The position numbers were made by a program, and so were the translations under genes. 56,850 bases of DNA from a virus. The stretch is from the IMG/VR virus record IMGVR_UViG_3300020156_000033, positions 1 through 56,850 of that record. The stretch is one strand, 5' to 3'. Positions 11,438 through 47,301 of the stretch are shown here, in pieces (positions within the stretch are counted from its first letter, which is position 1; the number at the start of each line of letters is the position of its first letter). Below the pieces are notes generated by a model. That model ran no database searches. It was not told where the DNA came from and saw nothing but the letters and a program-made list of their open reading frames with translations.

Positions 11438-11438
11438 C

Positions 11439-12331: not shown

Positions 12332-12336
12332 CGCGG

Positions 12337-12368: not shown

Positions 12369-12402
12369 GGAAGCCGCGCCGCAGCCGGGCAGCCAGGTCA
12401 GA

Positions 12403-12501
12403 ACAGGCCGCAGGGTGCAGGGCTGACCGAGTACCGCGTATCGATCTGCGGCCTGTCGCGTGCGAGCGCCGTGAAGCACACGCCCGAGCGGGGTGTGCTT
12501 C
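12403..12501 (+). promoter_or_regulatory. Two-hairpin structured leader
   Basis: ACAGGCCGCAG (12403-12413) pairs with CTGCGGCCTGT (12446-12456), enclosing 32 nt. GAAGCACAC (12473-12481) pairs with GTGTGCTTC (12493-12501). Together with the mini-ORF at 12540 they form a leader of over 150 nt ahead of the exonuclease gene, compatible with attenuation or translational control. Confidence 0.5.
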
Positions 12502-12539
12502 GCGGGGTCCGACACGGGACCGTGAACGGGAAGGACACC

Positions 12540-12569
12540 ATGGAGAACGACGAGGAAGTACGCGCTTGA
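12540..12569 (+). CDS. Putative 9-aa leader peptide
   Basis: ATG after ACGGGAAGGACACC, one of the best ribosome sites in the window, encodes MENDEEVRA and stops at TGA 12567-12569, overlapping the TTG start of the exonuclease gene (TTGA). The good ribosome site thus serves the peptide, and the exonuclease would be reached by re-initiation. Confidence 0.45.
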   Translation: MENDEEVRA

Positions 12570-13285
12570 GCGGAGAGCACGACCGCGAGAAGCGACGGGC
12601 CGTGGTGGAGAAGGCGGTGCTGGACGGGATCACCCGGACCACCGCCCGCGACCAGCAGAAGGGCATCGGCCCGAGCGAGATCGGCCAGGACTGCGACTTC
12701 TGCGTGGGCCTGGCGCTGACCCGGCGCTACCCCCAGCTCCGGCGGGGGGTGGACGCCGAGCCCGTCCTGCTGGAGGAGTCCTCCTACCGCAGGTTCAGCC
12801 TGAAGGCGTGGACGGGGACGGCGACGCACGAGAAGCTGGAGCGCGACGTCGAGTTCCCCGGGCTGCTGAAGGAGCACACCTTCGAGGTGTACTGGATGGA
12901 GGGATACGGGCAGATCGTCGGCCACGTGGACGCCGCCTTCCTGGAGCAGCTGACCGCCTTGGACTACAAGACCAAGGACGTCGCCAAGATCCGCTACTTC
13001 AAGCTGAACGGCGTACCGCAGAAGGAGGCCGTGCAGCTGATGCTGTACGGATGGGCGCTGGAGCGGGCCGGGCACCCCGTCGAGGACGTGGGCCTGTGCT
13101 ACATCCCGCGCGACTCCAACACCCTCGGCGACATCTGGACGGCCTTCGCCGTCTACCGCTCCGACTACGCCGAGCGGGCACTGGAGCGGCTGGAGAAGTT
13201 GTGGCAGCGGGTGCGCAGTGGCGACCTCGCCGCGCTGGAGCGCGACCCCGAGTGCTACGAGTGCAATCAGTCGTTCCGCATCTAG
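12566..13285 (+). CDS. Cas4/RecB-family PD-(D/E)XK exonuclease, 239 aa
   Basis: Predicted ssDNA exonuclease for recombination or end processing. Motifs: H89 (GTATHEK), D122 (GHVDAAF), D133-x-K135 (LDYKTK) and the Q157-x3-Y161 box. Four cysteines, C43 and C46 near the N-terminus and C230 and C233 at the C-terminus, match the iron-sulphur cluster of Cas4/AddB nucleases. The only possible start in frame is TTG 12566; no other start codon occurs until residue 111. Its stop TAG is fused to the repeat cassette leading to the Sak4-like gene. Confidence 0.85.
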   Translation: MSGEHDREKRRAVVEKAVLDGITRTTARDQQKGIGPSEIGQDCDFCVGLALTRRYPQLRRGVDAEPVLLEESSYRRFSLKAWTGTATHEKLERDVEFPGLLKEHTFEVYWMEGYGQIVGHVDAAFLEQLTALDYKTKDVAKIRYFKLNGVPQKEAVQLMLYGWALERAGHPVEDVGLCYIPRDSNTLGDIWTAFAVYRSDYAERALERLEKLWQRVRSGDLAALERDPECYECNQSFRI

Positions 13286-13314
13286 CACACACCGACACGG
13301 GAAGGAACACCATG
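13283..13314 (+). promoter_or_regulatory. Stop/ribosome-site/start cassette, copy at the Sak4-like gene
   Basis: TAGCACACACCGACACGG followed by GAAGGAACACCATG. The same stop-overlapping leader recurs at 19609 (nearly identical for 25 nt), 21265, and in shorter form at 5224, 7050 and 9150. Confidence 0.6.
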
Positions 13315-14082
13315 GCCCTCGATCTGAGCGGGCTCCCCGGCATCGAGATCAGGAAGCCCAAGGACGTGGCGAAGTCGCCGACGTTCCTGTTCTACGGACT
13401 GCCCAAGTCCGGCAAGACCACCCTGGCCGCCTCGGCGGCGCTGGTGGAGGAGCTGAGTCCGGTCCTCGTCATCGACTTCGAGGGCGGGACCGAGTCGCTG
13501 GCCGGTCTCTACGACGTCGATGTCATCCGGATCACCAACTACGAGCAGGGCAGCGAGTTCCTGCCGAAGTTGCTCACGCAGGACCACGGCTACAAGACCG
13601 TCGTCCTGGACCCGGTCAACGCCTTCCAGAAGCAGCTCCAGGACCAGATCGTCCGCAAGCAGAAGGAGTTCCAGCCGAGCGCCAAGGCCAACAACTCCCT
13701 CGGCGAGCGGTCGATGCTCCAGGCCGACTGGATGGTGGTCGGCGACAAGATGCGCAAGCTGTTCGAGGGGTTCCACAACGCCCCGTTCGTCACGATCTTC
13801 ACGGCGCACGCCGAGAAGGACAAGGACCCCAACACGGGGGCCCTGCTCATGGAACCCATGATGCAGGGCAAGATCTCGAAGTCCGAGCTGGGCCGCATCC
13901 CGACGATCATCGGCTACGTCCGCATGGTCGAAGAGGGTGGTAACGTCTTCCCCGTCGTCCGCTTCGGGGGCGGGAGGGGCATCATCGCTGGTGACCGCCT
14001 CCGTGTCCTGGACACCGAGGAGAAGGACCCCACGATGCGGACCATCTGGGGCAAGATCAAGCCCGTTCTCATCACCAAGTAA
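13312..14082 (+). CDS. Sak4-like RecA-fold ATPase, 256 aa
   Basis: Likely single-strand annealing or recombination ATPase. Walker A GLPKSGKT at residues 29-36; Walker B-like strand TVVLDPVNAF near residue 100; later conserved IFTAHAEKDKD. The size and single RecA core match phage Sak4/AAA_24 proteins, which work with a Cas4-type nuclease and an SSB; both neighbours fit. ATG with the canonical leader; the open frame upstream overlaps the exonuclease and is not coding. Confidence 0.85.
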   Translation: MALDLSGLPGIEIRKPKDVAKSPTFLFYGLPKSGKTTLAASAALVEELSPVLVIDFEGGTESLAGLYDVDVIRITNYEQGSEFLPKLLTQDHGYKTVVLDPVNAFQKQLQDQIVRKQKEFQPSAKANNSLGERSMLQADWMVVGDKMRKLFEGFHNAPFVTIFTAHAEKDKDPNTGALLMEPMMQGKISKSELGRIPTIIGYVRMVEEGGNVFPVVRFGGGRGIIAGDRLRVLDTEEKDPTMRTIWGKIKPVLITK

Positions 14083-14109
14083 CCACTGCACCACGGAAAG
14101 AGGCAGCAC

Positions 14110-14619
14110 GTGTCCGACGCCACGTTCAACCCGGCCGAGATCAACCTCAACCTGACCGAGGACGACTTCGCCGACAACGGGTTCAAGCTGATCCCGGTCG
14201 GCACCTGGGTCACCACCGTCATCTACGACGTCCAGATGAAGACCGTCGGCAAGCCGGGCGACAACTTCGGCAAGCCGATGTACAACGTCACCTTCCGCGT
14301 GTGCAACAACGAGTACGGCAGGAACAAGCAGCTCCGCAGCATGGTCTGCCTCTGGCAGGGTGCGCACTTCACCTACGCCAACCTGGTCAAGGCGCTGGGC
14401 GCGGCCAAGACCGGCGGCCAGGGGGTCCTGAGCCCCGAGGAGCTGATGGGTCTCGAGGTGGACGTGCGGATCAAGCGCCACCGCGAGCACGAGGGCAACC
14501 TCTACGAGGAGATCGGCGGCTTCGCCCCCGCCGGGACGAAGGCGGGCGGGGTGGTCTCCGACTCCGCCGCCCAGGAGTTCGGCGCCAAGTCGGGCACCAC
14601 CGTCAACCTCTTCGACTAG
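14110..14619 (+). CDS. ssDNA-binding-like protein (DUF669-type), 169 aa
   Basis: GTG after GGAAAGAGGCAGCAC. The fold looks like an OB-type or DUF669 phage protein: LIPVGTWVTTVIYDVQM, then NVTFRVCNNEYGRNKQ, VWQGAHF-like CLWQGAHFTYANLVKALG, and a Gly-rich tail ending TTVNLFD. Position between Sak4 and primase suggests it coats ssDNA. Its TAG is embedded in TAGCACACC and it is followed by a strong terminator. Confidence 0.7.
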   Translation: MSDATFNPAEINLNLTEDDFADNGFKLIPVGTWVTTVIYDVQMKTVGKPGDNFGKPMYNVTFRVCNNEYGRNKQLRSMVCLWQGAHFTYANLVKALGAAKTGGQGVLSPEELMGLEVDVRIKRHREHEGNLYEEIGGFAPAGTKAGGVVSDSAAQEFGAKSGTTVNLFD

Positions 14620-14635
14620 CACACCGACTGAGGAA

Positions 14636-14662
14636 GGGGGCCACCGGAAGGTGGCCCCCTTT
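14636..14662 (+). terminator. Rho-independent terminator
   Basis: GGGGGCCACC (14636-14645) and GGTGGCCCCC (14650-14659) pair perfectly with a GGAA tetraloop, then TTTCT. Separates the recombination genes from the primase gene. Confidence 0.85.
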
Positions 14663-14682
14663 CTGGTCTCGCAACGGATCGG

Positions 14683-16962
14683 ATGCAGATGAACACGGGT
14701 GAATTCTTCGATCTGCTGTTCGGGGACCTCGACGGCTGGGCCGTGGTGTGCTCGTTCCCGGGAGGGTTCTTCTCCCCCAAGGCGGGACCGACGGACCAGG
14801 AGTGGTTCGCCTGGCCCGAGGAGCGGGCGCAGATGATCGCCTACGTCCTCCAGAGGACCGACAACGACCTCTACACGGTGCCGACCCTCTACCGCACCAA
14901 GGGCAGCCGCAAGGCCGCCAACGCCCATCTGGGGCGCACGGTCTACGCCGACGCCGACAGCGCTCCGCCGGAGGCGTTCAAGCTGAAGCCGACGGCGGTG
15001 GTGGCCACGTCGACGGGCAGGACCCAGTGCTACTGGGTGGTCGATGACTGCCGGGACCCCGACCTGCTGTCGCAGTACGGGCGGGCGCTGGCCCACATGC
15101 ACCGCAACGACGGGTGCGACACCGGCGGCTGGGACATCGGCCAGCTGCTGCGCATCCCCGGCACCACCAACAACAAGCCGGACCTGGTCGCCCCCTTCCG
15201 GGTCGAAGTCGTTGAGCACACTTCCGGATTGGTCTATACCTCTTCGGTGTTTTCCAAGGTCTACGACCCGAACTCGGTGAAGTCCGCTGCGGTCCAGCTC
15301 GACGTCGAGATGCCGGACGAGTCCAGACTGCCGACCTTCGAGGAGGCCCGGGGTGTGCTCGTCGGTAGCTACGAGCTGCTGCGGTTGGTGGACGAGGCCG
15401 TCGTCAAAGGCGAGAAGGGCGGGGCAGGGGACCGCAGCGCGCGCATGTGGGCGCTGCTCAGCAACCTGTCCCGGATGGGCGTGGACCCGGGCACGGCCTT
15501 CGTGCTGGCCCGCAACGCCGGGTGCAACAAGTACCGCCAGGACGGCAGGCCCGAGGAGGAGCTGTGGGCCGAGGTCATGCGGGCCTACGGCGACCCCGAC
15601 AACCAGCCGGTGGTCTCCGACGCCGACGCCGCCAAGCTGGACCGCACCATCGCCCGGGAGAACAGGGCTCGCCAGCCGGTGGCCGCTGCGGTGCAGACCA
15701 CGCTGCTGCCCGCCCACTTCCTGTCCAAGGAGGAGCGGCCGCAGGTGCCCTACGACACGTTCGTGGACCGGTACCAGGCGTGGGGCTCGACGCGTACCGA
15801 CGCCGCTCCGCAGTACCTGCGGGCCGCCGCGCTCACGTGCATGTCGGCGGTCTACGGGGACTTCGGCAAGCCGCCCACCAAGTACGACTCGGGCGGCCTG
15901 AACCTGTGGTTCCTCATCCTGGGCGGCACCACCCGCAGCCGCAAATCGACGGTGCGCGGGATGATGGTCTACACCCTGGACGCCCTGTCCAACGACGGGT
16001 TCGTCTACGACATCGGGTCCAACGCCACGGCCGAGGGCCTGATGAACGAGCTGGCCGAGCGGCCGGGCTGGACGTCGGTGTTCCATCGGGACGAGGTCCA
16101 CGGCCTGCTGTACGAGGTCGGGGCCAAGAACTACATGGCGGGGTTCAAGGAGGCCCTGACCGAGCTGTACGACGGCCGGGTCCACGGCAAGCTGCGCGCC
16201 ACGGGCACGGTGAAGAAGACGGCGAGCACGCGGACCGTCTTCATCATGCTGATGGCGGGCGTCACCGAGCACGTGACCAAGGCGCTGACCGCCGCCGACT
16301 TCGCCTCGGGGTTCCTGGCCCGGTTCGTCTTCATCCACGCCGATCCGCCGCCGCGAACGCGGGAATCGGAGTGGATGGAGCAGGAGGAGGAGACGGTGGC
16401 CGCCGGTGGCGACACCGTGTTCGAGAGCTTGGTGGACGAGCTGCTGCTGGGCCGGTCTTTCTGGTCCGTCCAGACCACGCGCGGCGCCCAGTTGAAGATC
16501 GGGTTCGATGACATCGCCTGGAAGCGGCTGAACGAGTTCATCTGGGAGGCGGGCAACGCCGCCGAGGAGCACGAGCTGAGGGAGGTGCTGCAGCCCACCG
16601 TCGACCGCATGACGAAGTCGGTCATGAAGACCGCCATCCTCCTGGCGATGCACGAGAGCGAGTTGACGGTATCCTTGCGGCACGTGCTGAAGGCGGTGAG
16701 CCTGGCGGAGGAGTGGTACGGGCACCTGGTGACCGTGGCCACCAAGATCCGCCAGTCCTACTGGCTCAGGCGCCAAGACGACCTCATGGACATCATCGAG
16801 GAGTACGGCGGCCAGGTCAGCTGGAGCAAAGCCTACGCCAGGATGCGGAGGGACCTGCGTCCCCGGGAGTTCGGAGAGGTCGTGGATGCCCTGGTGATGG
16901 CGGGCAAGGCGATCCTCCGCCGACACGGGAACACGCAGGTCATCGAGAGTACGGGGAGGTAG
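14683..16962 (+). CDS. AEP-type primase fused to SF3/DUF3987-like helicase, 759 aa
   Basis: A bifunctional replicative primase-helicase. N-terminal archaeo-eukaryotic primase: D90-x-D92 (VYADADS), STGRTQCYWVVDD (110-122) and LLRIPGTTNNK (155-165). C-terminal ATPase: LILGGTTRSRKST (411-423) as P-loop, where the usual Gly before Lys421 is Arg, and VFHRDEVH (466-473) as Walker B. A helical C-terminal domain (from about 600) resembles winged-helix tails. Start at 14683 or the second ATG at 14689. The gene follows a terminator, so it probably has its own promoter or anti-termination. Confidence 0.85.
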   Translation: MQMNTGEFFDLLFGDLDGWAVVCSFPGGFFSPKAGPTDQEWFAWPEERAQMIAYVLQRTDNDLYTVPTLYRTKGSRKAANAHLGRTVYADADSAPPEAFKLKPTAVVATSTGRTQCYWVVDDCRDPDLLSQYGRALAHMHRNDGCDTGGWDIGQLLRIPGTTNNKPDLVAPFRVEVVEHTSGLVYTSSVFSKVYDPNSVKSAAVQLDVEMPDESRLPTFEEARGVLVGSYELLRLVDEAVVKGEKGGAGDRSARMWALLSNLSRMGVDPGTAFVLARNAGCNKYRQDGRPEEELWAEVMRAYGDPDNQPVVSDADAAKLDRTIARENRARQPVAAAVQTTLLPAHFLSKEERPQVPYDTFVDRYQAWGSTRTDAAPQYLRAAALTCMSAVYGDFGKPPTKYDSGGLNLWFLILGGTTRSRKSTVRGMMVYTLDALSNDGFVYDIGSNATAEGLMNELAERPGWTSVFHRDEVHGLLYEVGAKNYMAGFKEALTELYDGRVHGKLRATGTVKKTASTRTVFIMLMAGVTEHVTKALTAADFASGFLARFVFIHADPPPRTRESEWMEQEEETVAAGGDTVFESLVDELLLGRSFWSVQTTRGAQLKIGFDDIAWKRLNEFIWEAGNAAEEHELREVLQPTVDRMTKSVMKTAILLAMHESELTVSLRHVLKAVSLAEEWYGHLVTVATKIRQSYWLRRQDDLMDIIEEYGGQVSWSKAYARMRRDLRPREFGEVVDALVMAGKAILRRHGNTQVIESTGR

Positions 16963-16967
16963 GGCGG

Positions 16968-17756
16968 ATGGGCACAGGCCGAGCCGGGGCCACGCAGGGG
17001 GGCTACCGGGTCCGCAAGGACGGATCGGTGGCGTTCACGTACACGGAGCTGCACCTCGGCGAGGCACTGACCCACGCCATCTACTGCTTCGAGAAGGGCG
17101 CGCGCATGAACCGCGCCACCTGGCAGCGGGAGGCGCGCAAGCTGGCCGAGTGGGGGGTGTTCTCCCAGGCCAACATCGCCGCCGTCTTCGGCGTCTCCGC
17201 CACCCGCATCCGCCAGTTGGGCATCACCACCCTCAACGGCGCCAAGATGATGCGGGGCCGCTTCTCCCCCAAGTCCCTGCGGTTCCTCGCCCTGTCGATG
17301 CGCGAGAAGCTGACCAAGGGCAAGCACAACCCCCTGTGGGTGCTGGAGGCCGAGATCCGAGGGACGTCGCAGACGGTCATCGCGCGTCTCCTCGGCCTCT
17401 CCTCCAGCACCATCAGCCGCTTGGTACGGGAAGGAAACCTCATCCATGAGCGTCATGCTCTTCGATACCTCGAAGATAACGCCGATGACGAAGGACGTCC
17501 TGAGGAGAGCGTGGGAACTGAGCACGCCGGAAGCGACGCCGCTGGCGTTCACGCCGGAAGTGCCCCGGGCCCTGAAGCACCTCGAACAGGGCAGCCCGCT
17601 GGTCACGCTGGGCACGTTTACCGAGGTCCCGGGGATCGCCACCCTGTCGCAGCCGCAGATCCGCAGCCGCGCGGACGCGCTGACCATGCTGACGTCGGCG
17701 TTCCGCCTGGCCTGGCAGCAGGAGACGGGCCGCCTGCGTCCGCACCCGACGGGTGA
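16968..17756 (+). CDS. HTH DNA-binding protein, up to 262 aa, overlapping polA by 311 nt
   Basis: ATG after GGGGAGGTAGGGCGG. The first 160 residues look real: two helix-turn-helix-like segments, ANIAAVFGVSATRIRQLG and VIARLLGLSSSTISRLV. There is no stop before 17756, so the frame runs deep into the polymerase gene, and the last 100 residues are Gly/Ala/Pro-rich out-of-frame-type sequence. Either the protein has a disordered tail read from polA or a sequencing error hides the stop near 17446. It may be a replication initiator or regulator. Confidence 0.6.
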   Translation: MGTGRAGATQGGYRVRKDGSVAFTYTELHLGEALTHAIYCFEKGARMNRATWQREARKLAEWGVFSQANIAAVFGVSATRIRQLGITTLNGAKMMRGRFSPKSLRFLALSMREKLTKGKHNPLWVLEAEIRGTSQTVIARLLGLSSSTISRLVREGNLIHERHALRYLEDNADDEGRPEESVGTEHAGSDAAGVHAGSAPGPEAPRTGQPAGHAGHVYRGPGDRHPVAAADPQPRGRADHADVGVPPGLAAGDGPPASAPDG

Positions 17757-19611
17757 GCACCGTGTGCTGACCGGCCCCCAGGCCACCGCCTGGGTGGCCG
17801 AGCGGCGGAACCGGCCGGTCGTCGTGGACATCGAGACCCACGGCGACATCAGCCGCCTCCACCACAGTGAGCGCCTGCTGCTGTGCGTCGGCCTGTGCGA
17901 CGGCACCGAGACCGTGGTCGTGGACGGCGAGGAACTGGGAGACGGCCGGGACTACGCCCGCTTCCTGCACGAGTTGTCGCACCTGAAGCTCATCGCCCAC
18001 AACGGCAAGTTCGACCTGCCGGTGCTGGCGCAGGGTGCCGACGAAGGCACGGATCTGAAGCTGCACCACGACACCCTGCTCATGCACTATGCCCTGTTCC
18101 CCGCCGCCGGTGAGCACGGTCTGAAGCCCCTGTGCAAGCACCGCTTCGGGGCGCCCGACTGGGACAACCACGGCCACGACATGCGGGACCTGGGTTCGAT
18201 GGACCGCGCCGCCCTGCGGCTGTACAACGCCTTCGACGTCCAGTGGACGTGGCGCCTGTTCGAGCACCTGGTCCCCATGGTCGAGTCGCACGAGCACAAG
18301 GACCGCCTCTACCGGGGTGTGCTGATCCGGGCGAGCAACGCCCTCCAGCAGATCGAGCCCCGGGGGATCGGCTACGACCGCGACTACGCCGAGCGGCTGT
18401 ACACCGACCTGGGTGTGCTCGCCGACAGGCAGCGGGCCGATCTGGTGGCCGAAGCACACGCCTTGTCCCCCGGGGTCGCGTGGCCCTGGGCCAAGGAGGG
18501 CGGCAGGCTGGCCCGCGACGCCGACGGCGAGAAGTACCGGGAGTTCAACCCGGGCAGCCCGAAGCAGATCAAGGACCTCTACGCGGCGCAGGGCGTCAAG
18601 CTGGACAAGACCGACGAGTACGTGATGAGCAGGCGCGCGGAGAAGGGCGACGCCTTCGCCGAGAAGCTGCTCGCCTGGCGGGGCACGACCAAGCTGCGGT
18701 CCACCTACGTGGTCAGCCTCCTGGACAAGGCCAAGGCCCTGCCCGGGATGGAGCGGCCCCGGGTCTACCCCTCCTACCTGATCCACGGCACGAGCACGGG
18801 TCGGTTGTCCAGCTCCCACCCCAACATCCAGAACATCCCGCGCACCAAGCAGGACGGGACGCCGTCGATCCGGCGGATGTTCGTGCCGACGTCCGCCGAC
18901 CGCCTGCTCGTGCAGGTGGACTACTCCCAGGCCGAGCTGCGGGTCATGGCGGTGCTGGCCGGTGACCCCTGGCTGTCGGAGATCTTCTCCAACCCGAAGG
19001 TGGACATCTTCAACCAGATGATGCCCTCGGCCTTCCCCGACGCCGACATCGACGCCTGGGGGCCGGACGAGGCCAAGAACAACCGGGCCAAGCTGAAGGG
19101 CGTCATCTACGGCCTGAGCTTCGGACGGCGGGCACCGGCCATCGCCGACGCTCTGCGGATGCCGGTGGCCGAGGCGCAGCGGATCATCGACAACTACCTC
19201 GCCTCGGCGGCCAAGGTCGCCGAGTGGCGCGAGGAGGTCAGCCGCAAGGCGGTCCACGGCATCCCGCTGGTGAGCCCCTTCGGACGCCACTTCCAGCACG
19301 AGGTCGTCACGCCCCGGGGCAAGGACGACGTGGTCCGCAAGGCCCTGTCGTTCCTGCCGCAGAGCACCGCCAGCGACATCTGCCTGCGGGCCGCCTGCCG
19401 GATCATCGAGGAGCAGGAGGAGTCCGGCGGCGACTGGAACGTGGTGGCCCTGGTCCACGACGCCATCACCGTGGACGTCCCCGCCTACGAGGCCGAGGAC
19501 GCCGCCAAGTACGTGTCCGAGCACATGGTGCGCTCGGCCCGCGACACCTTCCCCGACCTGCCCTTCGCCGTCGAGGCGAAGTACGGGGACGACTGGGCCA
19601 AGACCAGCTAG
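17446..19611 (+). CDS. polA: Family A DNA polymerase (PolI-type) with 3'-5' exonuclease, 721 aa
   Basis: Replicative phage polymerase. Exonuclease domain: D128-x-E130 (VVVDIETHG), IAHNGKFDLPVL and YNAFDVQWTW. Polymerase domain: STGRLSSSHPNIQNIP, motif A VDYSQAELR (Asp492), motif B RAKLKGVIYGLSFG, motif C LVHDAITVD (His671, Asp672). Motif C carries Ala where E. coli PolI has Glu883, and motif B has Ile in place of the usual Asn. No 5'-3' nuclease domain. Start ATG 17446 follows TACGGGAAGGAAACC. The stop TAG is fused to the repeat cassette. Confidence 0.92.
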   Translation: MSVMLFDTSKITPMTKDVLRRAWELSTPEATPLAFTPEVPRALKHLEQGSPLVTLGTFTEVPGIATLSQPQIRSRADALTMLTSAFRLAWQQETGRLRPHPTGEHRVLTGPQATAWVAERRNRPVVVDIETHGDISRLHHSERLLLCVGLCDGTETVVVDGEELGDGRDYARFLHELSHLKLIAHNGKFDLPVLAQGADEGTDLKLHHDTLLMHYALFPAAGEHGLKPLCKHRFGAPDWDNHGHDMRDLGSMDRAALRLYNAFDVQWTWRLFEHLVPMVESHEHKDRLYRGVLIRASNALQQIEPRGIGYDRDYAERLYTDLGVLADRQRADLVAEAHALSPGVAWPWAKEGGRLARDADGEKYREFNPGSPKQIKDLYAAQGVKLDKTDEYVMSRRAEKGDAFAEKLLAWRGTTKLRSTYVVSLLDKAKALPGMERPRVYPSYLIHGTSTGRLSSSHPNIQNIPRTKQDGTPSIRRMFVPTSADRLLVQVDYSQAELRVMAVLAGDPWLSEIFSNPKVDIFNQMMPSAFPDADIDAWGPDEAKNNRAKLKGVIYGLSFGRRAPAIADALRMPVAEAQRIIDNYLASAAKVAEWREEVSRKAVHGIPLVSPFGRHFQHEVVTPRGKDDVVRKALSFLPQSTASDICLRAACRIIEEQEESGGDWNVVALVHDAITVDVPAYEAEDAAKYVSEHMVRSARDTFPDLPFAVEAKYGDDWAKTS

Positions 19612-19646
19612 CACACACCGACACGGGAAGGAAGCGCACAGCTGTG
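19609..19646 (+). promoter_or_regulatory. Stop/ribosome-site/start cassette, copy at the resolvase gene
   Basis: Begins with the polA stop as TAGCACACACCGACACGG, then GAAGGAAG, and ends in a GTG start 12 nt later. Identical to the copy at 13283 for the first 25 nt. Confidence 0.6.
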
Positions 19647-20141
19647 TTCATCATCATCGGGGTGGACCCCGGCAAGACGACGGGGATCGCCCACATCGCC
19701 TTCAACGACTCGGGCTCGCCCTTCCACGTCGATTACGAGGCGGTCCCCTACGAGGACAGCCCCGACGGGGACCACCCGGTGGACGTGGTCCGGGAACTCA
19801 TCGAGACCGCCATCGCCTACGCGGAGATGCCGAGGGTCGCCGTCGTTGCCGAGCAGTTCGTGCTGGAGGAGGGCACCCACGGCGTGGACACCACGGCGCT
19901 GCGGGTCCTCGGCGCGCTGGAGTACCTGCTGCGCCAGTCCCGCTACAGCGGGGTCGAGCTGGTCTACCAGCTGCGCACCGCCAAGCGCCTGGTCAAGGAC
20001 CGCCACCTGAAGTCGCTGGACCTCTACAGCGACTCCCCCCATAGCCGGGACGCCTTGCGCCACATCGCGGCCTACGTGCTGGCCAACCGGCCCGCTTCGC
20101 CGATGGCGAAGTTCTTCGCCCAGGCGTATCCCTCCGACTGA
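19644..20141 (+). CDS. RuvC-like Holliday-junction resolvase, 165 aa
   Basis: Cleaves branched DNA, probably before packaging. RNase H-fold signatures: GVDPGKTTGIA with D8, AVVAEQFV with E70, and SRDALRHIAAYV with D136 and H140 as the last acidic/His pair. Length fits RuvC (about 170 aa). GTG start selected by the repeat cassette leader; the frame upstream lies inside polA. Last large gene of the replication arm. Confidence 0.8.
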   Translation: MFIIIGVDPGKTTGIAHIAFNDSGSPFHVDYEAVPYEDSPDGDHPVDVVRELIETAIAYAEMPRVAVVAEQFVLEEGTHGVDTTALRVLGALEYLLRQSRYSGVELVYQLRTAKRLVKDRHLKSLDLYSDSPHSRDALRHIAAYVLANRPASPMAKFFAQAYPSD

Positions 20142-20153
20142 GGCGGTGCCATC

Positions 20154-20366
20154 ATGCCCATCAAGAAGGTCGTCGCCCTGTACGGCCTGTTCTGTGAGGA
20201 GTGTTCGGCGGTCCTGTGGCCCGTCGGCGCCGGAACGGCCTCCGAAGCACGCCGACGCGCCCGCGCCCAGGGCTGGCGTGCCCCGCACAACAACCCCAAG
20301 AACCCCACCGTCCTCTGCCCCCGCCATTACCGGAATCGAGACGACCATGTTGAAGGTGATACGTAG
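20154..20366 (+). CDS. Small zinc-finger-like protein, 70 aa
   Basis: ATG after GAGGCGGTGCCATC. C-x2-C (FCEECSAVLWPV) and a later C-x2-H (VLCPRHYRNR) form a putative metal site; a basic helix (ASEARRRARAQGW) lies between. Small proteins of this type are frequent in actinophages; function unknown. Overlaps the next gene by 20 nt. Confidence 0.65.
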   Translation: MPIKKVVALYGLFCEECSAVLWPVGAGTASEARRRARAQGWRAPHNNPKNPTVLCPRHYRNRDDHVEGDT

Positions 20367-20460
20367 GCTTACCGTCAGAGACTGCCCGGCGTGCGGCGGT
20401 TCGGGCATCGGGCCGCACGGCCACTGCTCGCGCTGCCACGGCAGCGGGAAGATCAGCTGA
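20347..20460 (+). CDS. DnaJ-type zinc-knuckle microprotein, 37 aa
   Basis: ATG 20347. Contains CPACGGSGIG and CSRCHGSGK, two C-x2-C-x-G-x-G units that together complete one DnaJ-type zinc site. Second such gene in the window (the other at 5104). Last gene of the plus-strand arm. Confidence 0.65.
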   Translation: MLKVIRRLTVRDCPACGGSGIGPHGHCSRCHGSGKIS

Positions 20461-20467
20461 CACGGGT

Positions 20468-20498
20468 GAGGCCCCGGGTGGATGACTCCCGGGGCCTC
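20468..20498. terminator. Bidirectional terminator between converging arms
   Basis: GAGGCCCCGGG (20468-20478) pairs perfectly with CCCGGGGCCTC (20488-20498), with TT on the plus side. It lies between the last early gene and the end of the late minus-strand arm. Confidence 0.8.
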
Positions 20499-20517
20499 TT
20501 CACGCAGAGTACTACAC

Positions 20518-20910
20518 TCAGACCTGATCGTGACGCGTGGTACGCGCCTGGATGTTCTCCGTGTCGATCGCGTTGTCCCGCGTCTTGGCGGCGGTGATCG
20601 CCTCGTCGGTGATGTGCTTGGCCGACTGGGAGTCGGCGGGCACGAGCACACTCACCACGTTGCTGGACTGGGGATCGAGCTTGGCCCCCTCCAGACGGCG
20701 CTGCACGTAGGACGAGAAGGCGCCGAACAGGATGGCGCCGACGACCGTGACCATCTGCTGCACGGTGACGGCGTCGCCGGTGCCGAACAGGTTCAGCAGG
20801 CCCTCCAGTACCGCCACGATCAGGACGGCGATACCGCCGCCGACGGTGTACTGCCCGAGCGAGCGCAGCGAGCGCCGCGTCGCATCGGTCTTGGTGACCT
20901 TGGTGGCCAT
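20518..20910 (-). CDS. Holin-like membrane protein, 130 aa
   Basis: Two hydrophobic helices (GGGIAVLIVAVLEGLLNLF and MVTVVGAILFGAFSSYV) followed by a soluble tail, a class II-like holin layout. It is the most promoter-distal late gene, downstream of the endolysin and tail fibre, as in many actinophage lysis cassettes. Alternative holin candidates are the membrane genes at 25283-25967. Confidence 0.6.
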   Translation of the reverse strand: MATKVTKTDATRRSLRSLGQYTVGGGIAVLIVAVLEGLLNLFGTGDAVTVQQMVTVVGAILFGAFSSYVQRRLEGAKLDPQSSNVVSVLVPADSQSAKHITDEAITAAKTRDNAIDTENIQARTTRHDQV

Positions 20911-20973
20911 CCGTCCTCCTCTGGTAGGAACGATGTGATTCTACGCTGCCACGCACAGGAACCGGAGGCCCCG

Positions 20974-21267
20974 ATGGCCGACCAGTACGCCAAGATGACG
21001 CCGCACAAGCGCCGCGAGATGACCAAGGAGCTGCTGATGGAGCTGCTGGAGCACGAGGAGAGCTTCTACCTCGCCGTCGTCAGCGCCGGTGGCGGCACGC
21101 TGCACATGGCCCGTCAGGAACCGGACCTCTCGGTCTTCCAGGTCACCGACGACAACTTCTTCTACGCCGACACCGACGAGCGCTACTGCTACGCGGGGCT
21201 GACGCCCCTCCAGGCGGTGGTCAAGCTCACCGAGCTGGCGCAGAAGTACCGCTCCACCACCGACTAG
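20974..21267 (+). CDS. Hypothetical protein in a plus-strand island, 97 aa
   Basis: ATG after GAACCGGAGGCCCCG. Helical N-terminus (KRREMTKELLMELLEHEESF), then beta-rich sequence with many acidic and aromatic residues. It is divergent from the adjacent holin-like gene with only 63 nt between the starts, which must hold its promoter. Its TAG is fused to AGCACACC. Unknown; may be a moron expressed independently of the late genes. Confidence 0.65.
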   Translation: MADQYAKMTPHKRREMTKELLMELLEHEESFYLAVVSAGGGTLHMARQEPDLSVFQVTDDNFFYADTDERYCYAGLTPLQAVVKLTELAQKYRSTTD

Positions 21268-21291
21268 CACACCACCACGGGAAGGACGCAC

Positions 21292-21564
21292 ATGTTCAAC
21301 GGGATCTTCATGCGAGCCGACTTCGAGTTCCTGCCGGGCGAGCTGATCGACGCCCAGATGCGCGACGGCGGACCGGGTGAGCAGGCCAGCGTCCTCGTCC
21401 TGTACTTCAGCGACGAGGCCCACCTCACGGCGTTCCGGGACAAGATGCGCGAGCTGGACAACCAGGGGATCGAGGACTTCGAGTTCCACTGCGACTTCCT
21501 GCACTTCACCCACCGCTTCCACATCGATGAGTGCGGCGTCAGTTCGCAACTCTACGAGGACTAG
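21292..21564 (+). CDS. Hypothetical protein in a plus-strand island, 90 aa
   Basis: ATG after CACGGGAAGGACGCAC. Mixed alpha/beta: MFNGIFMRADFEFLPGELI, then VLVLYFSDEAHLTAF and FHCDFLHFTHRFHIDEC. The His/Cys-rich C-terminus could bind metal. Followed directly by a hairpin that also ends the opposing tail-fibre transcript. Confidence 0.65.
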   Translation: MFNGIFMRADFEFLPGELIDAQMRDGGPGEQASVLVLYFSDEAHLTAFRDKMRELDNQGIEDFEFHCDFLHFTHRFHIDECGVSSQLYED

Positions 21565-21572
21565 TACAGCGA

Positions 21573-21603
21573 AGAGCCCGGCCCCTTCGGGGGACCGGGC
21601 TCT
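21573..21603. terminator. Bidirectional terminator
   Basis: AGAGCCCGG (21573-21581) pairs with CCGGGCTCT (21595-21603), with inner CCC/GGG pairs and a TTCG loop. Convergent stops on both sides. Confidence 0.75.
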
Positions 21604-21610
21604 CCGTATG

Positions 21611-23767
21611 TCAGCTGACGGTCAGGTAGCTGAAGCACCCCTGCATGTTGCGCACGCCGACCCCGATGTAGCCGCTGGTCAGCTGGCTGTCGGTGGCGGT
21701 GAAAGACGCACCGGTGTCCAACCGGGTGCAGGTGATCTGCGTGGGCGTCACGGCGATCCGGACCCGGATGCCCGCCGTGCCGGTCGTGATCGCGGTGGAC
21801 GCCTGAGAACCGATCGACGTCTTGACGGGCGCGGCGACCGTTCCCGTCACCTTGAACAGCTCGATGGTGCCGTTGGTCCGCTGGAGCAGGTTGTAGCAGT
21901 TCACCGACCTGGTGTCGTCGTTGTAGCCCAAGTCGTCGGACATGCAGAACTGCACCTGCATGGACGACGTCGTGTGCGTGAAGTGCAGGAAGTCCATGGT
22001 CACTTCGATGGTGTACGAAGGACTCCTCGACGCCACCGGCCCCACCTGGCCGACGACCACCGCGCCGTAGTTGCCGCTGGTCCCGTCGTTGTAGCGGTCG
22101 AGCACAACCCCCTGGGCCAGGCCGGTGGTGTGCCCCGACCAGTCCAGCCCCGACAGCGACATGCGCTTCGACGTCGCCGCGTAGGTATCCTGCGTCGATC
22201 CGTCACCGGAGACCAGGAACGTGCCGCTGCTCTGGTTGGCGGTGACGAACCCCAGCTTCGGACCCGTCCCCGTGTAGGTGCGGGTCGCCGTGGTGTAGTA
22301 GCTCAGCGGCTTGGCGTTCTGCGGCAGGTTGAAGATGTTCGCGCTGCTCGCGTTGGCCGCCGACAGGTTGTTGCCGTCGGACTGGACCTCGCCCTTGAGC
22401 ACGACCCGGCCCCCGAGCCTGCGCCACTGGCACGGGTCGGTCGCGGTGAAGCCCGGCAGGGCGTGCAGGTTGACCCACTCGCTCGTCGGGCCTCCGTTGG
22501 GCATCATCTGGCCCCGGTACTGGTCCACGATGTTGCGGCCCATGCCGTTGTCCCAGCTGCCCGAGGCCAGCGCCACCCGTCCGCGCGTCCACCCCGTCGA
22601 GACGTAGGCCGCGTCGTCGCTGATGACCGACACCTGGGGCACGGCGGCGCGCAGCGCGGCCACGTCGGTCCGCGACTGCATGTCCAGGATCGCGCTGCCG
22701 GAGTTGGGCTTGGTGCCGTACACCAGCAGCCGCATCCCCGCCGACACGGCAGCCTGCATCCGCGCCGTGGTGGCGTCCGACCTCATGCCGTAGTAGGCGA
22801 AGCCCTCCGACATGAGCGACGCCGGGCTGGTCGCGCCCGCCGTCTCCAGGTAGCCGCCCGGGATTCCCGCCGCGATCGCCGGAGCGACGCACTCCTTCTG
22901 GAACCCCTGGACGATCACCCTCTCCTGCATGGAGAACTTGGCCACTTCGGCCACGATCGCCTGCCCGAGCGCCGTGCGCTGCGCCGTCGTGCTGGTCCCG
23001 TCGATCTTGGCCTCGATCAGCCAGCACACCGGCGAGGAGGCGTAGCGGCGGAACATGTCTTCCAACGTCGGGATCGGGTACTCGTCCAAGTTGGAGAACC
23101 CGAAGAGCCACGGCTTGACCGTCAGCCCGCGAACGCTGGGCAGGCTCAGCCCCGCGATCGGCACGTCCACGCCCGTTGTCTTGAGGCAGCTCAGATCGTG
23201 CTGGAGGACCAGCGCGCCGTCGGCCGTGAGCTGGACGTCGATCTCCAGGAGCTGGAGCCCCTGGTCCACCGCGTTGTCGAAGGCCAAGTAGCTGTTCTCG
23301 GGCGCGATGTTGCCGCCACCCCGGTGCGGGATGACCTGCGGCCACGTGAGTTCCGAGATCTTCAGGATGTTCGAGGCGGATTCACCGGGAGGGCCCTGCG
23401 GGCCTATCTCACCCTGGATACCCTGCGGCCCCTGATCCCCGGGATCTCCCTTGTCGCCCTTGGGACCGGGTTCCCCCTGCGGTCCCGGGTCCCCCGGATC
23501 GCCCTTGTCCCCCTTCGGCCCCTGGTCGCCCGCAGGACCGGCGGGACCGGGCACCCCCTGGGCTCCCTTCAGGGAGTCGAGCCACTGGTCCAGCGTGCCG
23601 CTGAAGCCCTCCTCGACGGCCAGCTCGTAGGCCGACTCCCCCGGCGGACCCTGTTCACCGCTTCCGCCGCCCCCGCTCGTCGTCGGAAGGGGCGTGTCGG
23701 GCGTGACGGTGACCCAATGGCCGGGCGTGTCTTCCGTGCCCGGGACGAAGTACTGGACGGCGGCCAC
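21611..23767 (-). CDS. Tail fibre with collagen-like stalk and GDPD domain, 718 aa
   Basis: Probable receptor-binding fibre that also degrades a cell-surface polymer. Residues 1-35 match the N-terminus of the neighbouring short protein. About 36-128 hold Gly-x-y collagen repeats (GDKGDPGDPGPQGEPGPKGD). About 145-375 is a glycerophosphodiester phosphodiesterase domain with all key residues: HRG 148-150, E157-N158, E175-x-D177, H190-D191. The rest is a beta-rich tip. GDPD domains hydrolyse glycerophosphodiesters and could act on teichoic acid of Gram-positive walls. GTG start overlaps the upstream stop as TAGTG. Confidence 0.85.
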   Translation of the reverse strand: MAAVQYFVPGTEDTPGHWVTVTPDTPLPTTSGGGGSGEQGPPGESAYELAVEEGFSGTLDQWLDSLKGAQGVPGPAGPAGDQGPKGDKGDPGDPGPQGEPGPKGDKGDPGDQGPQGIQGEIGPQGPPGESASNILKISELTWPQVIPHRGGGNIAPENSYLAFDNAVDQGLQLLEIDVQLTADGALVLQHDLSCLKTTGVDVPIAGLSLPSVRGLTVKPWLFGFSNLDEYPIPTLEDMFRRYASSPVCWLIEAKIDGTSTTAQRTALGQAIVAEVAKFSMQERVIVQGFQKECVAPAIAAGIPGGYLETAGATSPASLMSEGFAYYGMRSDATTARMQAAVSAGMRLLVYGTKPNSGSAILDMQSRTDVAALRAAVPQVSVISDDAAYVSTGWTRGRVALASGSWDNGMGRNIVDQYRGQMMPNGGPTSEWVNLHALPGFTATDPCQWRRLGGRVVLKGEVQSDGNNLSAANASSANIFNLPQNAKPLSYYTTATRTYTGTGPKLGFVTANQSSGTFLVSGDGSTQDTYAATSKRMSLSGLDWSGHTTGLAQGVVLDRYNDGTSGNYGAVVVGQVGPVASRSPSYTIEVTMDFLHFTHTTSSMQVQFCMSDDLGYNDDTRSVNCYNLLQRTNGTIELFKVTGTVAAPVKTSIGSQASTAITTGTAGIRVRIAVTPTQITCTRLDTGASFTATDSQLTSGYIGVGVRNMQGCFSYLTVS

Positions 23768-24045
23768 TACGCCCCCGCGATGATCCCCGCAGCACGCAGC
23801 GAGGCGAGCAGCGCGTTGAGCTGGGTGACGGCTGAGGCCTCGTCGGTAGCGTCGGCGACGGCGCCCGCCGGGGACAGGGACATGGTGGACGTGGCGCTGT
23901 CCCAGTCGAGCGGGGCCGTGGCGTTGACGTCAGAGGGCTGCATTCCTCCACCTCCAGTGACGGGCAGCGGGTTGTCGGTGGAGACGAGGATCATCCGGCC
24001 CGGATTGTCCGCGTCGCCGGGCTCGAAGTAGTGGATGCCGGACAT
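23767..24045 (-). CDS. Short tail-associated protein, 92 aa
   Basis: The N-terminus (YFEPGDADNPGRM, then STDNPLPVTGGGG) parallels that of the tail fibre (YFVPGTEDTPGHW, PDTPLPTTSGGGG), so it probably shares the attachment module. The remainder is an Ala-rich helix (EASAVTQLNALLASLRAAG) likely to trimerise. Start ATG after GAGGAGGACC. May be a truncated fibre or fibre-linker. Confidence 0.65.
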   Translation of the reverse strand: MSGIHYFEPGDADNPGRMILVSTDNPLPVTGGGGMQPSDVNATAPLDWDSATSTMSLSPAGAVADATDEASAVTQLNALLASLRAAGIIAGA

Positions 24046-24084
24046 GGTCCTCCTCGTGTCGCACGTGGTCACAGCATAACGAAA

Positions 24085-24107
24085 GCCCCGGCCACAAGGA
24101 CCGGGGC
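24085..24107 (-). terminator. Terminator after the endolysin gene
   Basis: On the minus strand GCCCCGG and CCGGGGC form a stem with TTTCG after it. Confidence 0.65.
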
Positions 24108-24120
24108 GGATGCGTTCATT

Positions 24121-25122
24121 CTAGCGCTTGGACTGGAACATGGTGGCCTTGCCGCCCCGCCATTCGTAATCGCCCTCGCCCAGCTGCTGGACGTAGACCC
24201 GCAGGCGCTCGTCCTTCTGGGTCACCTCGGTGATGGGCCGGGCGAACTTGGTGTTGGGGTAGGACCCCGCACGGAACAGCGGGCTGGGCTTGGCGCTGGC
24301 CGCCTTGTCGCCCTTCACCTTGCCGAGCATGACCTCGTAGTTGGGCTCGATCAGGTTGCCGTCGGCGTCCTTGGCGATGACCTCGCCCTCCAGCGTGCCG
24401 AGCACCTTGGTGTCGGCGAAGGCGATGGTCGCGTACTGGTTGTCCTTGGTCACCTTTTTGTCGGTGGCGTTGTCCCAGGTGATGCAGACGGGCTCGCCCT
24501 TCTTCAGCTTCTGGGTCGTGCTGGAGCTGAACCAGACCATGTCGGCCATATCGAGGAAGTCCCCCTCGGTCTCGTCGGTGTCGGGGGCAGCGGCGCCGCC
24601 CTTCAGGTTCCAGGCGGGCGGCTTGGCGAAGGTCCCGTTCCTGACCAGCGCGTACGCCTTGTCACCAGGGCAGGAGGTGGCGATGAAGTCGCGGTGGCCC
24701 TTCACGGTGCTCGCGATGCTGGACTCGGGCTCCATCAGCCACGCGCGGAGCTGGCGGACGGCCTCGATCTGAGCCGACGTGATGGTGTCCGTGGGGCCGG
24801 TGGCCAGGGTGACCGAGTAGTAGGTCGAGTTGCCGCCCGGCTGCGCCGCCTGCTGCTTGAACAGACCGCGCCCCTCCATGACGTAGCCGTGAGCACACGC
24901 CATAAAAGAATATCCAATGTCCGCCCAGCCCCGCGAGGGGCCGGTGTGGAACTTGCGGGTGTTCTGCCAGTACTCGACGCACTCGCCGTGCGCCTCGCCC
25001 GCCAGTCCCTGGTTGACGGAGTCGTAGTGGACGGCGATCCCGCTGCGCGGGTTGGCGTAGGAGGCGGGCGACGCCTTCCAGCCCAGGTCCTTGCGGCTCA
25101 TGTAGAGCTGCGGTTTCGGCAT
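24121..25122 (-). CDS. Endolysin: N-acetylmuramoyl-L-alanine amidase, 333 aa
   Basis: Cuts the bond between muramic acid and the peptide stem. Amidase_2 fold with zinc ligands H32 (AVHYDS), H143 (KGHRDF) and C151 (SCPGDK), and Y71 in the active site (DIGYSFM). Residues 1-165 form the catalytic part. After a linker, the C-terminal 140 residues are a beta-rich domain (probable wall-binding). A run of AT-ending codons encodes GYSF in the active site, unusual in this genome. No signal peptide, so it needs a holin. Confidence 0.88.
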   Translation of the reverse strand: MPKPQLYMSRKDLGWKASPASYANPRSGIAVHYDSVNQGLAGEAHGECVEYWQNTRKFHTGPSRGWADIGYSFMACAHGYVMEGRGLFKQQAAQPGGNSTYYSVTLATGPTDTITSAQIEAVRQLRAWLMEPESSIASTVKGHRDFIATSCPGDKAYALVRNGTFAKPPAWNLKGGAAAPDTDETEGDFLDMADMVWFSSSTTQKLKKGEPVCITWDNATDKKVTKDNQYATIAFADTKVLGTLEGEVIAKDADGNLIEPNYEVMLGKVKGDKAASAKPSPLFRAGSYPNTKFARPITEVTQKDERLRVYVQQLGEGDYEWRGGKATMFQSKR

Positions 25123-25131
25123 GGTCCTTCC

Positions 25132-25290
25132 CTACTCGCACGCCTCGCACGTGCGGTTCCTCTGGAGGGCGGGGTTCTGGTAGTCGGCGGCCCGGGTGGG
25201 TGGGAACGGCTTGTCCCAGCTGGCGTCGTCGGTGGGCAGCGGTTCCTCGGCGGATGCATCGACCGGTCCGCCGGGGGTGTGCTCAGACAT
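25132..25290 (-). CDS. Hypothetical acidic peptide, 52 aa
   Basis: ATG overlaps the end of the upstream gene. Pro/Asp/Glu-rich, apparently disordered (SEHTPGGPVDASAEEPLPTD) with C-terminal RTCEACE, a lone C-x2-C pair that could bind metal as a dimer. Lies directly before the endolysin. Confidence 0.55.
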   Translation of the reverse strand: MSEHTPGGPVDASAEEPLPTDDASWDKPFPPTRAADYQNPALQRNRTCEACE

Positions 25291-25762
25291 CGCAGACCTC
25301 GTCGGGCAGCGGCGGGTAGTTCTCCCGCTCCTCGTCGCTCTGCTCCCGCGCCTCCAGGTAGTCCCGGAGGATGTCGCGGTTGTCCTCGGCGGGGTCGGCT
25401 TCGACCAGCCGGGTGATCGTCTCGTCCAAGTTCTCCCTGTCCTGCGTCGTCAGCTCGGTGTTGTGCTTCAGCGTATCGAGGAACTGGCGGTTGATGTCGG
25501 TCTGGCAGTCCGCGCGGGCCGCGTCGTAGGCGGCACGCTGGCGGTCCACGTGGGCGTTGTACACCCCGAGCGCGACGGCGACCAGGGATACGACCAGTAT
25601 CCCCGCCGCCAGCGCCGTGCTCGCCGACACCGCGCCCCGGTCACCGCCGCCGTGGAAGCGGTCGGTGCCGGGGTCACCGGCGACCAGGATCATGTACGCG
25701 AGCAGGAACCCGCTGGTGTACCAGACCACGGCGTCCAGCGCGAAGGTCTCAGCCTGTGCCAT
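25283..25762 (-). CDS. Membrane protein with cytoplasmic coiled coil, 159 aa; holin candidate
   Basis: Two membrane helices (VVWYTSGFLLAYMILV and TALAAGILVVSLVAVALGVY) with a Gly/His-rich link between, then a charged tail with coiled-coil character (RENLDETITRLVEADP). Being adjacent to the endolysin it is a second candidate for holin or anti-holin. Overlaps both neighbours. Confidence 0.65.
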   Translation of the reverse strand: MAQAETFALDAVVWYTSGFLLAYMILVAGDPGTDRFHGGGDRGAVSASTALAAGILVVSLVAVALGVYNAHVDRQRAAYDAARADCQTDINRQFLDTLKHNTELTTQDRENLDETITRLVEADPAEDNRDILRDYLEAREQSDEERENYPPLPDEVCDV

Positions 25763-44835: not shown

Positions 44836-47301
44836 CTACAGCGGGCTGATGCGGTTCTCCATCTGGTCGGCCATCATCTCCTGGAGCGCCTGAAGCAGCT
44901 GCTCCGGACTGGCCTGTACCACGTCGCCGGGCTGGAGCCCCAGCGGCGGGCGGTCGGCGCAGGCGTAGACGAAGGCGTCGGCGAAGTCGGGCGAGGACCC
45001 CCCGGTGCGCTTGCGGATGTCGTCCTTGGACTCGATGTAGAGACGGTCGTTGGAGTACTTGAACCGCACGCCCTGAAGCTCCTCGTACAGCTGGTCGTGC
45101 ATGACGGCCTTCTGCACCCCGTTGAGCATGTACTGCCGCGTGCGGTCGTACCACAGTGCGCGGGCGTTGCCATAGCCCGCCACCGGGGTGCCGTCCTCCT
45201 CGGCGGCCCGCGCCGATCCGATCATCTCGATGACGGTCAGCCCCCGGTAGCGGGTCGGTTCGGCCGCGATCATGGCCATGGCCGCATCGACCACACCGGC
45301 GCCCAGGCCGACGGCGTCCACGCGGACCTCGACCTCCTCGTCGTCGTCGGTGCGCAGGTCGCAGGCGATGCCGAGCACACGCCGCGCGGAACTCGTGGTG
45401 TCCATGCCCTTCCAGGAGTCCTGCACCCAGGCGACCGACCCGCGCCGAGCACACACCGCCGTGGTGTCGTCGCCGTAGCGCGCGGGGTCCACGCCCAGGA
45501 ACAGCGGCCCCTCGCCCCGCTCGTCGGCCAGGTCGAAGCCGTTGGCCAGCACCTGCGCCCCGAACAGCGAGGACACCGCGTTGTCGGGGAAGTCCGCCAG
45601 CACCTTGGACTGGTAGCGGGGGTCGTCCTCGCCCCACGCCTTGCGGCGGTCCTCCACCCACTCCCGCTGCACGAGCACGTCGCGCAGCAGCGCGGGCACC
45701 TGCTCGTCGGTGAAGTTCGGGGTGTCGAACGCCGAGATGGTGATGCGGTTCCACAGGTCGGCCTGCGACTCCGACGTGCAGACCCTGCCGAACTCGGTGT
45801 CGGGGTCGTCGGGGTTGCCGATGGCCAGGATGCGGGCGTCGCCGGTGGTGGTGATCGCCTCGACCGCCGTCCACAGGGCGGGGGCCACGCCGCACGCCTC
45901 ATCGATCACGACGAGGACGTAGCGGCGGTGGATGCCCTGGAAGGCGTGGATGTTGTGGTCGGAGGGCTTGCGCCCGAACCCGATGATCTCGCCGTTGTCC
46001 AGCTTCCACTCGTCGGACTGGGTGACGTAGCCGACCAGCGGTGTGAAGCGCTCGTCGGACTCGGCGCGGGCGGAGGCCCGGCGGTGGTGCTTGCGGATCT
46101 CCTCCCACAGGATCTTGTTCACCTGGGCGTAGGTCGGCGCGGTGGAGACCACGATCGCCTCGCCGGGCGGGTGGGTGTCCAGCCACCAGGCCGAGGCCAC
46201 CGAGGCGATCATCGAGTTGTGCGTGGGCACCATGTCGGCGCCCGCGAGGTAGAGGTGGTTGTCCGAGGCCACCTGCACGCACTGCGTGGGCACCGACGGC
46301 ACCGGCCGCACCTCGCGGATGACCCGGCCGGTCAGGCGGCTGCGGCCGTTCTTGCCCCCGTTGCGCTTCTCCCAGCGCTCCAGGGCGTGCTCGGCCTCGG
46401 CCGGGAAGGGGTTGTCCACCGTGCGCAGCACCACCGCGTAGTCGCCGGTCGGCTCCCCCATGCGGTACAGCGGAACCGGACCGCCCGGCACCACCCGGTG
46501 CCCCAGGGTGCGGGCCAGCTCCGCCGCGCGCTCGGCGGCGGCCAGCTTGGGCAGCGCGAGCAGCACCGCGCCGTCGGCGCGGACCGAGCCCCAGGCAGCA
46601 CACACCCCGGTGAAGGCCGCCTCGCGCTGCTTGAGGGCGGCGCGCATCAGGTGCGAGGGCAGCGCGGCCTGGACGCCCATCTCGTAGGGGTCCTGGACGA
46701 AGCCGGTCTCCGGGCCCTGCAGCGGCCGCGCCAGCGGCACCGCGTGGTTGTAGTCGCCCCGGTGGTTCTTCAGGCTGGCCGCGATCTCGGCCGTGGTGCG
46801 GACCTCGGCCGCGTCCCAGTGGTCGCGCCAGTCCACCTCGGTGCCCGCGCGGTGGGCGGCGGTGCGGATGCGCTGCCGGGTGCGGGCGTCGATGGTGGCC
46901 CACTCGTGGTTCCACCCGCACCGCACCGCCGAGCCGTCATCGAAGACGACCTCGGCCACGTCGTGGCGGAACACCTGGGACTTGGCCACCACCAGCACCG
47001 GGCCGCCGTGCTCGCCCAGCAGGTGGTCCCCCACCGACACCCGCCCCATCGACGTCCAGCCGGTGGGGGTCGGCAGCAGGGTGTCCAGCGGCAGGTCCTT
47101 GCCCGAGCCGTGGCAGGACTTCACCGCCGTGCGCTTGTGGTCGCGCACGCTCTGAAGCACCTCGACCTGCTTGGACCAGGCGTGGACCTGGAGCCGGTCG
47201 CGCGCCCAGCCCCCCGGGTCCATGCGGTACCCGCTGGACTTGGCCTCGGCGGCGAGGCGCCGCAGCGCCCCCTCCACCACCTCGGCGTCGAAGCCGCCCA
47301 T
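44836..47301 (-). CDS. Terminase large subunit interrupted by an intein, 821-aa precursor
   Basis: DNA-packaging ATPase and nuclease. The precursor has N-extein 1-68, intein 69-362 and C-extein 363-821; the spliced protein is 527 aa, normal for TerL. The Walker A motif is split: C63-H-G-S-G-K68 before, S363 after the intein. Walker B is VLVVIDEA (462-469). Nuclease domain: FLGVDPARYGDD with D605, later VRVDAVGLGAG (D662) and PDFADAFVYAC (D772/D775). Without splicing the P-loop is broken, so packaging depends on protein splicing. Confidence 0.92.
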   Translation of the reverse strand: MGGFDAEVVEGALRRLAAEAKSSGYRMDPGGWARDRLQVHAWSKQVEVLQSVRDHKRTAVKSCHGSGKDLPLDTLLPTPTGWTSMGRVSVGDHLLGEHGGPVLVVAKSQVFRHDVAEVVFDDGSAVRCGWNHEWATIDARTRQRIRTAAHRAGTEVDWRDHWDAAEVRTTAEIAASLKNHRGDYNHAVPLARPLQGPETGFVQDPYEMGVQAALPSHLMRAALKQREAAFTGVCAAWGSVRADGAVLLALPKLAAAERAAELARTLGHRVVPGGPVPLYRMGEPTGDYAVVLRTVDNPFPAEAEHALERWEKRNGGKNGRSRLTGRVIREVRPVPSVPTQCVQVASDNHLYLAGADMVPTHNSMIASVASAWWLDTHPPGEAIVVSTAPTYAQVNKILWEEIRKHHRRASARAESDERFTPLVGYVTQSDEWKLDNGEIIGFGRKPSDHNIHAFQGIHRRYVLVVIDEACGVAPALWTAVEAITTTGDARILAIGNPDDPDTEFGRVCTSESQADLWNRITISAFDTPNFTDEQVPALLRDVLVQREWVEDRRKAWGEDDPRYQSKVLADFPDNAVSSLFGAQVLANGFDLADERGEGPLFLGVDPARYGDDTTAVCARRGSVAWVQDSWKGMDTTSSARRVLGIACDLRTDDDEEVEVRVDAVGLGAGVVDAAMAMIAAEPTRYRGLTVIEMIGSARAAEEDGTPVAGYGNARALWYDRTRQYMLNGVQKAVMHDQLYEELQGVRFKYSNDRLYIESKDDIRKRTGGSSPDFADAFVYACADRPPLGLQPGDVVQASPEQLLQALQEMMADQMENRISPL
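46216..47097 (-). other. Class 3-type intein in the TerL P-loop, 294 aa
   Basis: The intein starts with Asp69, not Cys or Ser, and reads DTLLPTPTGWTSMGRVSVGD (block A). Block B RCGWNHEWAT has H132 and W134; block F TQCVQVASDNHLYLAG has C341; block G MVPTHN-S has T360, H361, N362 and Ser363 as +1. W134-C341-T360 is the WCT signature of class 3 inteins, where the block F Cys makes the first ester branch. The endonuclease region is mostly gone. Confidence 0.88.

Follow-up and report, generated by a model that had tools for sequence, protein, structure and literature searches.

A class 3 intein with a decayed homing endonuclease in the Walker A motif of a phage terminase large subunit

Introduction

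The class 3 splicing pathway requires a cysteine at F:4, a histidine at B:10 and a tryptophan at B:12 (PMC5222942), and the catalytic triad of these inteins is Cys-His-Thr (PMC7664689). In the class 3 intein of the DnaB P-loop the +1 serine also belongs to the P-loop, and the block B aspartate of class 3 inteins has been argued to have a role (PMC6195587). Inteins are likewise known from the large terminase subunit (TerL) of mycobacteriophages; those at site TerL1-a are inserted between the P-loop lysine and a nucleophilic threonine, and published TerL inteins at sites c and e are of class 3 and splice (PMC5050341).

Here we describe an intein in the TerL gene of a single 56,850-base uncultivated virus record, analysed over its full length and hereafter denoted the window; the host of the phage is probably an actinobacterium. 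Neither the insertion site nor the intein class is new for phage TerL, and the window intein is a further example which had not been annotated. It resembles TerL1-a in its insertion into Walker A after the lysine (PMC5050341, where the class is stated for sites c and e). The mini-inteins DnaBi1 of Mycobacterium smegmatis (6bs8) and DnaB1 of M. chimaera (6rix), which are its best match in both sequence and fold, are also of class 3, lie in a P-loop, have Ser at +1 and carry no active endonuclease; their host protein, however, is a replicative helicase, a short linker replaces the middle domain, and block B reads DxxH where the window intein has GxxH.

The TerL proteins of the Clavibacter phages CMP1 (GQ241246, ACY35907) and CN1A (KF669650) share with the window the GK/D...THN/S or T boundary, the class 3 residues and an aspartate at position 1, with splicing domains about 50–52% identical to that of the window, but retain both LAGLIDADG motifs, including DTDG, whereas the window lacks the first half and the acidic residues of the second motif. 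The CN1A TerL is annotated in GenBank as 'contains intein'; our literature search, in which coverage of class 3 work was incomplete, found no paper on the CMP1 or CN1A TerL inteins. The exteins nearest to those of the window are of Streptomyces type (50–55% identity). The Streptomyces phages Kela, Satis and Frankenweenie, together with many IMG/VR kin, resemble the window in boundary, class 3 residues and the lack of a recognisable endonuclease, but have Ala at position 1, inteins of 267–320 residues with a differently eroded middle domain, and splicing domains only 32–42% identical to that of the window.

Results

The window TerL gene encodes a precursor whose Walker A motif is split between K68 and S363 (KSCHGSGK/D...THN/SMIAS; Table 1). 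The C-terminal part of the precursor hits the terminase large subunit family PHROG 2 (E = 3.3e-29). After the TerL gene come, in the customary order, a portal gene (match to PHROG 10963, E = 4.4e-108) and a head maturation protease. The insert reads DLPLDT...MVPTHN without a stop. A preliminary description of this DNA had placed it between GSGK and the S that completes Walker A, and the translation puts it exactly there; the coordinates, lengths and residue numbers given in that description are all correct, as is the 527-residue length of the spliced protein (821 - 294). The translation has Asp at 69, His at 132, Trp at 134, Cys at 341, Thr at 360, Asn at 362 and Ser at 363. Elsewhere in the window, the stretch 9557–25416 holds several long open reading frames without a PHROG match at E ≤ 0.001, for example 13282–16926 (-), 1214 residues; 17440–19614 (-), 724 residues; and 24031–25416 (+), 461 residues.

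Table 1. Features of the interrupted TerL gene, in window coordinates
Feature	Position	Strand	Basis
Gene for the TerL precursor of 821 aa (N-extein, intein and C-extein)	44836..47301	-	ORF translation; C-extein match to PHROG 2
N-extein, 68 aa, C-terminus KSCHGSGK (Walker A through invariant Lys)	47098..47301	-	translation
Class 3 intein of 294 residues, Asp1-Asn294 (D69-N362 of precursor)	46216..47097	-	translation, 6bs8 match, motifs, Foldseek
Splicing half at the N-terminus (blocks A and B; residues 1-82 of the intein), with His132 (B:10) and Trp134 (B:12)	46852..47097	-	alignment to 6bs8; pLDDT 84-95
Fossil remnant of a LAGLIDADG homing endonuclease, at about residues 136-239 of the intein	46381..46692	-	alignments; no Pfam endonuclease match
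Splicing half at the C-terminus (blocks F and G; residues 246-294 of the intein), with Cys341 (F:4), Thr360 (G:5), His361 and Asn362	46216..46362	-	6bs8 alignment, residue checks
C-extein, 459 aa and stop codon; first residue Ser363 (Walker A Ser and intein +1)	44836..46215	-	translation, PHROG 2 match

Profile searching, from which the preliminary description would have taken the lack of an intein match as a refutation, did not recover the insert: Pfam returned neither an intein nor an endonuclease match, and the NCBIfam model of intein C-termini (TIGR01443) scored 14.8 bits, below its cut-off of 15.6. A search of the whole record for a second intein with TIGR01443, a model which also misses the known TerL intein, found none. 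We attribute the profile misses to thin coverage of class 3 in the libraries, since the match to solved class 3 inteins is decisive. A phmmer search of PDB structures found 6bs8, a class 3 intein of 139 residues from M. smegmatis DnaB (E = 1.2e-24), to the ends of which both splicing halves align (query 2–82 to 6bs8 2–84, plus query 246–294), and tblastn showed that TerL proteins of Clavibacter phages hold class 3 inteins at this boundary too (E = 9e-22). In an AlphaFold model of the intein the splicing domain has a pLDDT of about 90, whilst residues 125–254 are mostly poorly predicted; class 3 inteins (6bs8/6rix/6riy, best E = 3.9e-11) account for the top seven Foldseek chains and are followed by other inteins, several bearing endonucleases.

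The lack of a Pfam match, or of an above-threshold NCBIfam intein match, would also be expected if the insert were an extra domain in an atypical TerL, retained in the mature protein. We give this reading almost no weight, as the insert divides Walker A between Lys and Ser, solved inteins are matched by both phmmer and Foldseek, and homologues exist that are empty at that exact point. Two of the latter (L034 and L078) read GSGKS or GAGKS at the insertion point, which supports both intein junctions; the sites of Molivia, Thunderclap, Nonagon and Yappy are likewise empty.

No relative emerged when the intein by itself was used to scan viral contigs; kin were recovered through extein and whole-TerL queries. 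The extein-only scan gave 40 loci, 36 with a readable insertion site, which are not independent because several contigs are near duplicates; an intein occupies 35 of these sites (29 read whole and six in the C-terminal part only), the single empty one being L034 (43% identity). The same boundary is occupied in CMP1, CN1A, Mwe-JY05, Kela, Satis and Frankenweenie, as well as in one genome contig each from an Actinomyces MAG and from Streptomyces NEAU-Y11. The Walker A class 3 inteins of Frankenweenie (L073), Kela (L079) and Satis (L080) are unannotated, the records giving 'terminase' only.

Further inteins were encountered in these relatives. Three IMG/VR TerL genes (L035, L036 and L037; open frames of 1003–1187 residues) contain two inteins apiece: the class 3 intein of Walker A, and a second of class 1 type located at Walker B, where it starts with the Cys of DEAC and ends GN before CGVPEEIW; both Walker motifs of these proteins are thus interrupted, by inteins of different classes. 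Frankenweenie gene 79 (L074), noted as 'Cas4 exonuclease and intron', has an apparent class 3 intein in a Cas4-like exonuclease (WKG/LALDT...VVTHN/T, the first residue being uncertain by one). The LAGLIDADG motifs of this intein are intact; the TerL intein of the same genome has none.

The catalytic residues place the window intein in class 3. As the preliminary description had proposed, position 1 is not Cys, Ser or Thr but Asp69, so no nucleophile is present there, and the set of W134 (B:12), C341 (F:4) and T360 (G:5) is complete, each residue aligning with its counterpart in 6bs8 and 37 other class 3 inteins. His132 (B:10), His361, the C-terminal Asn362 and Ser363 (+1) are all present, and W, C, T, H and N are kept in every one of the 38 distinct class 3 inteins compared, the window included. 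The assignment is further supported by the sequence match to 6bs8 and by the predicted fold. A position 1 without a nucleophile is also found in class 2 inteins, in which case Ser363 would attack the K68–D69 bond directly; this is extremely improbable given the full WCT set and the proximity in sequence and fold to class 3 inteins, and class 2 inteins have been reported only in KlbA genes (PMC3196547).

That the TerL intein splices, and by which chemistry, we infer from the mechanism of its class. With the help of His132 and Thr360, Cys341 of block F would attack the K68–D69 peptide bond to give the branched thioester of class 3. The N-extein would then pass by transesterification to Ser363, the +1 residue and itself the P-loop serine, the intein would be released through cyclisation of Asn362, and an acyl shift would restore the P-loop as GSGKS in a 527-residue TerL. 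Unspliced TerL is predicted to be an inactive ATPase, owing to the insert in its P-loop, and there is sound reason to regard TerL ATPase activity as dependent on splicing.

Two residues of the window intein are unusual. B:7 is Gly (in the other 37 class 3 inteins it is Ser in 33, Asp in three and His in one), and Ala stands four positions after Cys341, where 36 of the others have Asp and one has Asn; the window intein is the only one of the 38 with Gly at B:7 and Ala at F:4+4. These changes at otherwise conserved positions bring the efficiency of splicing into question. An intein that is class 3 by descent may have lost or slowed its splicing, such that TerL stays unmatured or matures only conditionally, and there is a precedent in the Arthrobacter Arth_1007 pseudogene, whose class 3 intein is inactive (PMC3196547). 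The window intein, however, keeps Cys F:4 and His B:10, unlike that pseudogene; its 821-codon frame is unbroken, and the portal, protease, tape measure and tail genes of the window are all open. TerL is, moreover, an essential protein of tailed phages. We therefore regard lost or slowed splicing as unlikely; from the essential nature of the terminase and the intact frame and catalytic residues, the window intein likely splices.

The middle of the window intein is the remnant of a homing endonuclease. The TerL inteins of CMP1, CN1A and Mwe-JY05 hold both LAGLIDADG motifs (YILGAWLGDGSS and LLRGIMDTDG in CMP1) and are matched by Pfam LAGLIDADG_3/Hom_end with E-values of 3.9e-5 to 4.5e-3, some under the curated cut-off. 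Relative to these three, the first motif of the window intein has shrunk to DPYEMGVQAA and the stretch after it, about 40 to 75 residues by alignment, is deleted; the second motif reads FTGVCAAWGSV, with AAWG for DTDG, such that both acidic residues are gone. The window intein thus lacks the two LAGLIDADG motifs with acidic residues that mark a mobile intein. With its first LAGLIDADG half lost and its second motif altered, the endonuclease appears to be a dead fossil which would not cut DNA, and because of this decay the intein is probably no longer mobile. An immobile intein may persist at this position because the active site is essential and imprecise removal would be lethal.

In the Streptomyces-type kin no Pfam endonuclease match was obtained and no motif other than GxxDxxGR was found. 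The intein of one of these (L009:3151-3957) was nevertheless modelled with a whole-model mean pLDDT of 94.7, its middle region having an alpha-beta-beta-alpha-beta-beta-alpha layout, which we take to be that of one LAGLIDADG half-domain. The pN/pS ratio of the middle region is 0.04–0.13 in close pairs of Streptomyces-type kin and 0.43 pooled over all pairs, with pooled values of 0.25 and 0.08 for the two splicing halves. These low ratios indicate that the middle region is still under purifying selection among close relatives of the Streptomyces-type kin; the window has no close relative. This suggests, from the kin and not from the window itself, a further reading which we advance tentatively and hold to be rather unlikely: that the class 3 intein is fixed and immobile in the TerL lineage, with the decayed endonuclease half-domain kept folded and selected for a new job, such as the timing of TerL maturation.

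The descent of the intein was considered from the same comparisons. The splicing domain of the window is 50–53% identical to those of CMP1, CN1A and Mwe-JY05, as against 32–42% for its extein kin, whereas the exteins give the reverse order, the window being nearest the Streptomyces-type TerL. These discordant identities suggested a horizontal replacement of the intein, which the trees fail to establish: a splicing-domain tree grouping the window intein with its extein kin was not rejected (p-AU 0.22), and the full-length tree places the window beside the extein kin with support of 84/91 (not starred). Since the trees accommodate the window with its extein kin, intein transfer may have occurred but is not needed, and one old insertion in the TerL lineage, followed by gradual decay of the endonuclease, would be the simpler reading.

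Discussion

The evidence as a whole is very probably best explained by a class 3 intein in the Walker A motif of TerL which splices by the Cys341 route and carries a decayed homing endonuclease. It is a further case of a recurrent theme, that of inteins in the ATPase active sites of phage packaging motors. Because class 3 inteins can be missed by standard profile libraries, Streptomyces phage TerL records have been annotated without them. Together with its relatives, the window intein forms a graded series at one site, from an intact endonuclease (Clavibacter and Microcystis phages), through a half-deleted and dead one (the window), to one that is barely recognisable (Streptomyces-type kin), such that the decay of a homing endonuclease and the retention of an immobile intein become testable at a single site.
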